Source: Swaminathania salitolerans (GTDB taxonomy: Bacteria; Pseudomonadota; Alphaproteobacteria; Acetobacterales; Acetobacteraceae). Taken from it: a stretch of DNA of 64,000 bases. Below the pieces are notes generated by a model. The model searched no databases. It was not told the origin of the DNA and saw only the letters and a list, made by a program, of their open reading frames with translations. Positions 36,146 to 38,142 of the stretch are shown here, one piece after another; the stretch's first letter is position 1, and each line of letters starts with the position of its first letter. The position numbers and the translations under genes were made by a program. The stretch is from NCBI RefSeq assembly GCF_007988945.1, contig NZ_BJVC01000001.1:682001-746000 (forward strand), read 5' to 3'.

Positions 36146-36691
36146 TCAGCGTCCTTTCTGTTCCTTGGCCAGCCGGCGCATGATCATGTTGCGCTTGAGC
36201 TTCGAGAGATGGTCCACGAACAGGATCCCGTCGAGATGATCGATCTCATGCTGCAGGCAGGTCGCGAGCAGATCGTCGGCATCCATCTCCTCGATGACGC
36301 CATCCAGGGTCCGGTAGCGCATACGCACGCCGACGGGTCGCACCACTTCGGCATACTGGTTGGGCAGGGACAGGCAACCTTCCTCCCGTGCGGCAAGCTG
36401 CTCCGTCTCCTCGATGATTTCGGGGTTGATCAGCACCAGCGGGTTCCGCTCGCCCTCATCGGCGACATCGACGAGGGCGAAGCGCAGGCCGAGGCCGATC
36501 TGGGGGGCGGCGAGACCGATCCCGGGCGCCTTGTACATGGCCGAGAACATTCCGGGCAGGGTCGCACGGACGAGCGCCATGTCCTCCGGGGTCACTTCGC
36601 GCGCAACGGCACGCAGCACGGGCTGGGGCGCGACGAGAATGGGGGTCGGGGCGACGGACTCGATGTCCGCGAGAAAAGGGAGCGCAGTCAT
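36146..36691 (-). CDS. def: Peptide deformylase
   Basis: A 181-residue metallopeptidase with all three motifs: GIGLAAPQIG (about 57-66), EGCLSLPNQ (about 104-112, Cys metal ligand) and QHEIDHLDG (about 147-155, two His ligands and catalytic Glu). It removes formyl groups from nascent proteins. The ATG at 36691 is supported by homology; 39 upstream codons are not. Confidence 0.96.
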   Translation of the reverse strand: MTALPFLADIESVAPTPILVAPQPVLRAVAREVTPEDMALVRATLPGMFSAMYKAPGIGLAAPQIGLGLRFALVDVADEGERNPLVLINPEIIEETEQLAAREEGCLSLPNQYAEVVRPVGVRMRYRTLDGVIEEMDADDLLATCLQHEIDHLDGILFVDHLSKLKRNMIMRRLAKEQKGR

Positions 36692-36781
36692 GATGCCGGG
36701 ATGTAGTCGGTCATGCGCCGGAAAACCAGTTCGTATTGACGGTTTTCGATGCAACGACCGGGATTCCCGAAGGGCGCTTCG

Positions 36782-36810
36782 CTTGCGTTCATGCCCAAAC
36801 ATGCTCATAT
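36782..36810 (+). promoter_or_regulatory. Candidate sigma-32 (RpoH) promoter of hsp20
   Basis: CTTGCGT (36782-36788) and GCTCATAT (36803-36810) are separated by 14 bases. This resembles the heat-shock consensus CTTGAAA / CCCCATNT in both spacing and most positions. Start of transcription would be near 36817. Confidence 0.45.
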
Positions 36811-36880
36811 CGGGCGCGGGTACCCGATGCCTCTTCGAGGGTCGATCCTATCCTATCGTCTCGCTCCTGGAGGAGGCTGC
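36811..36880 (+). promoter_or_regulatory. ROSE-like RNA thermometer candidate in hsp20 leader
   Basis: The last 20 nt before the ATG read TCGCTCCTGGAGGAGGCTGC. A UCGCU element (36861-36865) fits the conserved UYGCU of ROSE thermometers. CUCC (36864-36867) can pair with GGAG (36872-36875) around a UGGA tetraloop, hiding the ribosome site, with a G-G opposition (36863/36876) as in ROSE. Only the terminal hairpin was folded by eye. Confidence 0.45.
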
Positions 36881-37378
36881 ATGTCAGGCCGACTGTTCAC
36901 GTCACCCATGTTTCTCGGTTTCGATCACCTCGAGCAGATGCTCGAGCGCGCGTCGAAAACCGCTTCGGACGGCTATCCTCCCTATAATATCGAGCAGCTC
37001 AACCAGACGACACTGCGGATCACGCTCGCTGTCGCCGGTTTCGTCATGGACGATCTCCAGATCACGCAGGAGGACAACCAGCTCGTCATTCGCGGCCGTC
37101 AGACGGATGACAGCCAGGGGCGTGTCTTCCTCCATCGCGGGATTGCCGCGCGACAGTTCCAGAAAGCCTTCGTTCTGGCAGAAAATATCGAGATCGGCGA
37201 AGCGTGGCTTGACAACGGGCTGTTGCATATCGATCTCTTCCGTCCCCAGCCGGAAGTCCGCGTCAAGCGCATCGAGATAAGCGCAGGACGCCGGGACCGA
37301 TCCATGGCCCGCACCACCCATATCGAGGTTCCAAAGCCGCGCCGCACGCGCGCCATCCGCGATCTCGACGACGAATGA
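36881..37378 (+). CDS. Small heat shock protein, Hsp20 family
   Basis: A 165-residue alpha-crystallin-type chaperone. PMFLGFDHLEQMLERA is the typical N-terminal start in alphaproteobacterial IbpA/HspD-like proteins; YPPYNIEQLN, LAVAGFVMDDLQI, the AFVLAENIEIGEAWLDNGLL stretch (split A-F to L) and IDLFRP cover the crystallin domain at about 30-130. It binds unfolding proteins during heat stress. Its promoter and leader look heat-responsive, and DUF1150 follows, a frequent pairing. Confidence 0.93.
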   Translation: MSGRLFTSPMFLGFDHLEQMLERASKTASDGYPPYNIEQLNQTTLRITLAVAGFVMDDLQITQEDNQLVIRGRQTDDSQGRVFLHRGIAARQFQKAFVLAENIEIGEAWLDNGLLHIDLFRPQPEVRVKRIEISAGRRDRSMARTTHIEVPKPRRTRAIRDLDDE

Positions 37379-37454: not shown

Positions 37455-37709
37455 ATGACCAAATCAGTTCGTGACGAGGAGACCGGATCGGCGCCCGCGC
37501 CGGTTTCGGATCTGCGCCGTATGACACATCAGGACCTCAAGGATTTCGGCATGAGCAAGCTGGCTTATGTCAAACCCGTGACCTATGAGGGCGAGGCCGC
37601 GTTTGCCATCCACGCAGCGGATGGAACGCCCATGGCGCTCGCCGAAGACCAGTCCAGCGCTTTCGAGGCCATCATCGATCACGAGATGGTCCCGGCCTGG
37701 GTCCACTGA
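37455..37709 (+). CDS. DUF1150 family protein
   Basis: An 84-residue cytoplasmic protein ending AEDQSSAFEAIIDHEMVPAWVH, with GMSKLAYVKPV and FAIHAADGTPMALA in the middle. These match DUF1150, a small family that in alphaproteobacteria usually follows an hsp20 gene. The function is unknown; coexpression with the chaperone is inferred from the 76-base gap and shared strand. Confidence 0.85.
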   Translation: MTKSVRDEETGSAPAPVSDLRRMTHQDLKDFGMSKLAYVKPVTYEGEAAFAIHAADGTPMALAEDQSSAFEAIIDHEMVPAWVH

Positions 37710-37779: not shown

Positions 37780-38142
37780 GTGACGTCTAAGAATGCCGAT
37801 ATCGTGCGCTATGGTGAGGAACATCGTCTGAGCGGCGCTGTGCGACATGGCAATACGCTCTATCTCGCGGGGCAGGTTGCAGACGATGCGTCTCTCGATA
37901 CCGAGGGCCAGACGGCGGATATCCTCCGTCAGATCGATGCGATCCTGGCCGAGGCCGGTACCGACAAGACCCGTCTGCTCTCCGTTCAGGTATTCCTGAC
38001 CGATATCACCGAGGTCGATTCGATGAACCGGGCCTGGGATGCCTGGCTCGATCACGATCACAAACCGGCGCGCGCGACCGTCGAGGCACGTCTCGTTGAT
38101 CCCGACTGGGCTGTGGAAATCACGGCAATCGCAGCGCTCTGA
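37780..38142 (+). CDS. RidA/YjgF family enamine/imine deaminase-like protein
   Basis: A 120-residue Rid-family protein. VRHGNTLYLAGQVADD, TADILRQIDAILAEAG, VQVFLTDITEV and the C-terminal RATVEARLVDPDWAVEI match the trimeric fold, with the Arg that binds substrate carboxylate in PARATVEA. Rid proteins hydrolyse reactive enamines from PLP enzymes. This copy resembles non-RidA subfamilies, so activity is uncertain. GTG start with AAGGGAGA upstream. A short G+C hairpin (38159-38174) separates it from convergent rpoN. Confidence 0.85.
   Translation: MTSKNADIVRYGEEHRLSGAVRHGNTLYLAGQVADDASLDTEGQTADILRQIDAILAEAGTDKTRLLSVQVFLTDITEVDSMNRAWDAWLDHDHKPARATVEARLVDPDWAVEITAIAAL

Follow-up and report, generated by a model that had tools for sequence, protein, structure and literature searches.

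The region upstream of the hsp20 gene of Swaminathania salitolerans (Acetobacteraceae) raises the question of whether heat controls this gene at two levels, through a sigma-32-type promoter and through a leader that acts as an RNA thermometer of the ROSE kind. We addressed this question for the window, the stretch of 64,000 nucleotides in which the gene lies, and for related loci in the family and in the class Alphaproteobacteria. Considered together, our analyses make it very probable that an RpoH-dependent hsp20 promoter is followed by a leader forming a compact, two-hairpin ROSE-type RNA thermometer.

The encoded protein (start codon ATG at 36881) is 96% identical to the Hsp20 of Asaia lannensis and scored 118.9 bits against the NCBIfam IbpA model, below the model cut-off of 212. 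A DUF1150 gene (37455-37709, +) lies 76 nt downstream of hsp20 and a Rid-family gene (37780-38142) is next; the three genes possibly form one unit.

Table 1. Features around the hsp20 start, in window positions. R1 is a covariance model built in this work from rows that include the window.
Feature	Position	Strand	Basis
def (peptide deformylase), divergent from hsp20	36146..36691	-	start codon assumed
-35 element CTTGCGT, RpoH (sigma-32) type	36782..36788	+	letters; CTTG-CATAT pattern in relatives
-10 element GCTCATAT, 14 nt after CTTGCGT	36803..36810	+	letters; CTTG-CATAT pattern in relatives
Putative 5' leader, 64 nt	36817..36880	+	R1 match 36817-36879, 54.1 bits
Hairpin I: CGAU-[G36829]-CC ... 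GG-GUCG	36825..36844	+	covariation in relatives; window alignment
Hairpin II: GUCUC-[G36863]-CUC, loop CUG, GAGGAGGC	36858..36877	+	alignment, conservation, motif scan
hsp20, IbpA-like small heat-shock protein, 165 aa	36881..37378	+	PF00011 4.9e-15

Promoter and leader of hsp20

RpoH promoters combine a CTTG -35 element with a CCCAT-like -10 element, and the window promoter has both at the right spacing. The sigma-32-like promoter proposed in an earlier note on this DNA was borne out by the letters, CTTGCGT-N14-GCTCATAT, and by the relatives. CTTG lies 19 or 20 nt 5' of CATAT in 76 of 78 distinct hsp20 upstream regions, the window included (these are the window and 80 named loci, minus three near-duplicates; L087 and L105 are the exceptions), and in 0.13% of mononucleotide-shuffled copies of these regions. 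The commonest letters across the upstream regions are CTTGCA and CCATATC; the window -10 reads TCATAT, whereas most relatives have CCATAT. From the window alone, CTTG-N18-21-CATAT was not significant, with one match against 0.54 expected. The genome also contains rpoH (370.3 bits against the NCBI cut-off of 323.1). Judged from these sequence patterns, the hsp20 promoter is probably used by RpoH, with transcription probably starting near 36817. A scan of the organism's own genome for an RpoH regulon with CTTG-N17-20-CCATAT was set aside: it gave two matches against seven for the reversed control, singled out no regulon, and missed the hsp20 promoter itself because of the TCATAT there.

The earlier note had also described a leader of about 64 nt carrying UCGCU and masking the ribosome site, in agreement with the letters at 36861-36865 and with hairpin II at 36858-36877. 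In hairpin I, a G bulges out beneath an apex of two C-G pairs (CC/GG), and two outer consensus pairs are broken in the window. Hairpin II is predicted to mask the Shine-Dalgarno (SD) sequence AGGAGG (36871-36876), with a wobble between U36859 and G36876. UCGCU is followed by CCU running into GGAGGAGG (36869-36876), and the leader ends as GUCUCGCUC-CUG-GAGGAGGC-UGC-AUG. The combination TCTCGCTC-N2-10-GAGGAGG occurred once in the window and in none of 100 shuffles. As for the "G-G opposition" claimed previously, an unpaired G does stand opposite the SD, and energy folding draws it as the bulged G36863. The stability of the window leader was unexceptional (z -1.48; 19 of 200 shuffles folded equally well), so the evidence for structure is comparative. 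Folding z-scores were rejected as evidence, being too weak for use in six leaders (-0.89 to -2.68).

Comparative evidence for the two hairpins

We examined covariation in three alignments, A1, A2, and A3. A1 comprises 73 distinct leaders drawn from 85 upstream regions, 84 of which passed the motif filter used to choose its rows; the region that failed, L091, has GGGGAGGC as its 3' arm. UCGCU was present in 73 of 73 A1 rows, an invariance that stems partly from selection by this filter. A1 folds as two hairpins. Of the hairpin I cells, 96.7% pair, and both sides have changed in five of eight pairs. Over the whole structure, the doubly changed cells of A1 numbered 114, compared with 33.3 after shuffling; its covariation score dropped from 0.339 to at most 0.081 on sliding the partners. 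Counted by pairs instead of cells, double changes showed no excess in A1 (5 against 5.0 in shuffles). Hairpin II pairs in 100% of A1 cells and is nearly invariant, so that A1 yields no covariation for it. Because the R1 structure guided the fitting of A2 and A3, their pair counts are biased toward it: A2 gave 6 doubly changed pairs against 4.6 in shuffles (a number reached by 100 of 500 shuffles), and A3, with 81 leaders of which 14 come from families other than Acetobacteraceae, gave ten against 5.6. Hairpin II holds three of these ten, as exemplified by GUAUC/GAUAC in L154 and L158. The alignments indicate that hairpin I covaries and that hairpin II does so once other families join. In four Acetobacteraceae leaders (L182, L186, L192, and L210), the alignment shows additional GC-rich sequence of hairpin-like character separating hairpins I and II, reminiscent of the middle hairpin in classical ROSE.

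In the window itself, the lowest-energy fold contains neither hairpin and thus differs from the two-hairpin fold (-25.5 against -19.8 kcal/mol at 37°C). The window leader could accordingly be locked by a lineage-specific trap that pairs GCCUCUUC of hairpin I (36829-36836) with GAGGAGGC (36870-36877), and it would then perhaps be heat-insensitive; at 37°C, prediction favors the trap by 5.7 kcal/mol. We regard such a lock as quite improbable, as hairpin II is part of the best fold at 30°C in 70 of 73 A1 rows, the eight Asaia rows among them (all but the window, L074, and L105), the window has an unremarkable R1 score of 54.1 bits, and hairpins I and II, being local, would presumably form first during transcription. 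Whichever of the two folds forms, the two-hairpin or the alternative one, it would cover the SD.

An unpaired G was found in both hairpins of 112 of 112 leaders scored, and in none of the 112 was the lower stem of hairpin II fully Watson-Crick (73 leaders from A1 and 39 from A2, the count omitting three A2 rows: L002, which is not a leader, and L197 and L207, which were misfitted by the model). Every one of the 73 A1 rows has its weak point, a wobble, at the second pair (GUCUC, GUUUC); most A2 rows have the wobble at the third pair (GCUUC), and three leaders have a C.A mismatch instead (GCCCC). In other families, some lower stems (L154 and L158) are fully Watson-Crick yet A-U rich, for which reason the rule would be "weak" and not "wobble." Removing the unpaired G and the wobble in silico shifted hairpin II from -7.1 to -13.6 kcal/mol at 37°C. 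According to PMC3669281, heat induction of the Pseudomonas putida thermometer was reduced to 1.7-fold by U38C, the thermometer was shut by U38C combined with deletion of G39, and 6.8-fold induction remained after deletion of G39 alone. The opposing unpaired G by itself therefore need not be essential.

Distribution of the leader and relation to known ROSE elements

Under strict filters, with 21 candidates scored per genome, R1 matched 99 of the 249 Acetobacteraceae genomes, usually at a single site in each. The best 30 R1 loci all lie directly before hsp20, and these are largely sites used in building R1. Among the 150 R1-negative genomes, 40 were hand-picked from those with an hsp20 position in the matches listed, and an unfiltered scan found a match at the hsp20 start in 40 of 40 (E 2.2e-8 to 0.18; 38 at E<=0.01, the other two at 0.038 and 0.18), implying that the strict filters lose many. 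Three low-scoring R1 matches (G008:C12, G093:C49, and G229:C13; E 0.0017 to 0.0051) are on a contig other than that of hsp20. A search of the 249 genomes for hsp20 gave no match in 5.

Across the class, R1 matched 27 of 289 genomes at E<=0.1, and 14 of 28 out-of-family sites directly precede hsp20, including 11 of the 13 best (E<=0.006). R2, a covariance model of 58 positions built from A3, matched 32 of 289 genomes at E<=0.05 and was more specific for hsp20 class-wide than R1. Of its 34 sites, 30 were examined and 29 of these lie directly before hsp20, counting the window, two more members of the family, and another 13 sites from the set on which R2 was built. Among out-of-family sites absent from R2 building, 14 of 15 directly precede hsp20, and all 14 have UCGCU or UUGCU together with the GCC of hairpin I. 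One R2 site outside the 30 examined, G479:C1 (L155), is not before hsp20. This specificity bears on the idea that the hairpin is a static, low-efficiency initiation site that senses nothing. The predicted energy of hairpin II changes gradually on warming, from -8.4 kcal/mol at 30°C to -6.1 kcal/mol at 42°C, as such a site would allow, but the idea appears very unlikely given that R2 sites are specific for hsp20, that the weak pair is retained while its place moves, and that the layout agrees with proven thermometers.

The earlier note had looked to a covariance match with the Rfam ROSE families and had taken the lack of one as counting against its reading, and literally this is what we found: RF00435, RF01832, and RF02523 gave no match at E<=10 in 36600-37100. 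Nothing in the whole window exceeded a ROSE gathering cut-off, and the organism's own genome had no RF00435 match at E<=1 under strict filters. With no ROSE-family match in the window, we ruled out that its element is an Rfam ROSE proper. The Rfam models are blank here, yet a model built from relatives finds hsp20 leaders class-wide, which shows the Rfam models to be too narrow for this group. We class the window element as a compact, uncatalogued relative of the ROSE thermometers and not as belonging to an Rfam family. ROSE_3 (RF02523) had sub-threshold matches at a few relatives' leaders and none in the window: L100 was the sole such locus among 15 named loci, and three of 14 out-of-family leaders (L159, L153, and L162; 20 other loci tested) also showed one. 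Counted regardless of the downstream gene, RF02523 exceeded its cut-off in 0 of 289 genomes of the class (19 at E<=0.1) and RF00435 in 1 of 289 (44 at E<=0.1).

In some Acetobacteraceae, a different hsp20 copy is preceded by canonical ROSE (RF00435), which exceeded its cut-off in 9 of 100 genomes of the family. At seven of the eight RF00435 loci listed, the Hsp20 gene product is 37-45% identical to the window Hsp20; no Hsp20 gene was found at the eighth, L116. In four relatives (G008, G036, G041, and G084), it is a more distant Hsp20 copy that has a canonical Rfam ROSE. A Gluconobacter oxydans ROSE element predicted by Rfam before GOX_RS07835, for which no transcription start was detected (PMC5756330), probably belongs to the other hsp20 copy as well. 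The S. salitolerans genome encodes a second Hsp20, 41% identical to the first (L002 1501-1923; G000:C2:124863-125285, -), whose leader matched neither R1, R2, nor Rfam ROSE; weak R1 and R2 matches at that locus fall away from the leader. A CTTG-N-CCATAT site (L220; G000:C2:124669-124698, -) lies about 165 nt past the aligned part of this second hsp20.

The RF00435 consensus shares with the window a hairpin I of 6 pairs with an unpaired G and CC/GG, and its last hairpin, UUGCUC against GGAGGA, resembles hairpin II. In contrast to canonical ROSE, the window has no middle hairpin and no long lower stem reaching the start codon. R2 matched the ROSE place in all eight ROSE loci, weakly: L116 at 24.2 bits (E 0.0014), L112-L115 at 15.8 to 17.1 bits (E 0.04 to 0.07), and L117-L119 at 10.6 to 13.5 bits (E 0.2 to 0.9). 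The R2 alignment of L116 places the ROSE middle part as an insertion, and matches of 78-81 nt to the 58-position model suggest the same for L112-L115. R2 and RF00435 also coincide in G451, G374, and G490, where RF00435 is below its cut-off.

Likenesses extend beyond the Alphaproteobacteria. In ROSE_2 of Escherichia coli ibpA (RF01832), hairpin I has a bulged G, GACCU[G]UCC/GGAAGGUC, and hairpin II, CUC[G]CUG/CAGGAG, is of the bulged-G type, both as in the window, although there was no cross-match of models. In 1.5 kb around E. coli ibpAB, a small search, the best R2 match was the ibpB leader (L221 8903-8980, -; 14.9 bits, E 0.0041); R2 scored 9.3 bits on ibpA hairpin II, and R1 gave no match to this stretch at E<=1. 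The Pseudomonas ibpA thermometers, as described in PMC3669281, are like the window leader in being short (5' UTRs of 61-62 nt), in having two hairpins before an ibpA-type gene, in setting U(U/C)GCU against the SD with a G opposite it, and in having a start codon outside the hairpin and a conserved first hairpin. The window differs in its anti-SD arm, GUCUC[G]CUC, in which a single unpaired G interrupts 8 pairs, and in belonging to another bacterial class; the likeness is one of layout and not of a letter-by-letter comparison. The comparisons with canonical ROSE and with E. coli ibpAB argue that compact and extended ROSE are one kind, and they suggest a deep relation.

Proposed heat sensing, possible Hsp20 binding, and significance

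The window leader has several of the features by which ROSE-like elements are broadly recognized: U(U/C)GCU imperfectly paired with the SD (UCGCU), an unpaired or noncanonical G opposite the SD (G36863), a 5' hairpin before the SD hairpin, albeit weaker in the window itself, and a position before a small heat-shock gene. These features, together with the RpoH-type promoter, the presence of rpoH, and the covariation, support the two-level control, by promoter and ROSE-like leader, that the earlier note had read. In this scheme, heat shock would raise the hsp20 transcript through the RpoH-dependent promoter. Hairpin I would serve as a 5' scaffold, and the anti-SD arm of hairpin II would pair with the SD, held at marginal stability by the unpaired G and the wobble or mismatch. 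Ribosomes would thereby be kept off the SD at growth temperature and be admitted when hairpin II melts on heating. From this modeled structure, we infer that melting of hairpin II would place hsp20 under translational control. Nearest-neighbor folding of the window leader from 30 to 42°C predicted negligible opening; because it predicted no opening of the E. coli ibpA leader either, which served as the control, we dropped in silico melting as evidence.

Another way to account for the leader is that it is mainly a binding site for Hsp20, which aggregates would titrate off, so that temperature would act only indirectly. In E. coli, free IbpA is reported to bind its own 5' UTR and repress translation until aggregates titrate it off, and the IbpA proteins of E. 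coli, Cedecea, and Vibrio are described as repressing translation via 5' UTRs. The window Hsp20 retains equivalents of R93 and Y34 (AARQF, GYPPYN), which E. coli IbpA reportedly needs to repress, whereas at the cationic cluster R93, R97, K98 it has R, K, A. Autorepression would also give a role to hairpin I, whose Pseudomonas counterpart does not melt according to PMC3669281. On the other side, the parts of the IbpA literature available to us contained no tested alphaproteobacterial case, and autorepression alone does not predict the weak lower-stem pair in 112 of 112 leaders. We therefore consider it possible but somewhat unlikely as the main function. It does not conflict with a thermometer, beside which it could operate, and by analogy Hsp20 autorepression is plausible as a complementary second layer beside the thermometer.

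A more speculative and rather doubtful extension is that ROSE elements from alpha- to gammaproteobacteria share one core of two parts, an SD hairpin with a bulged G and a hairpin I in which a fixed G bulges out beneath an apex of the CC/GG type. In that case, hairpin I would be a conserved docking site of Hsp20/IbpA, the leader would be a dual sensor of heat and aggregation, and the classical middle hairpins would be lineage-specific insertions. R2 and such a shared core may bridge compact and classical ROSE. We found no report of a compact ROSE before hsp20 in Acetobacteraceae in the open-licence literature. Waldminghaus 2005 is said to list more than 40 ROSE-type candidates (PMC4166951), and these may already include some of the leaders described here.

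In PMC3669281, the role of the first hairpin in ROSE-like thermometers is called not fully understood. With the present leaders, the role of a conserved first hairpin becomes a testable question. Our findings indicate that small heat-shock genes are commonly under ROSE-type control in Acetobacteraceae and that such control extends to other Alphaproteobacteria, in a compact form that escapes the Rfam models at their cut-offs. Acetic acid bacteria are industrial organisms, and heat tolerance matters in that setting.
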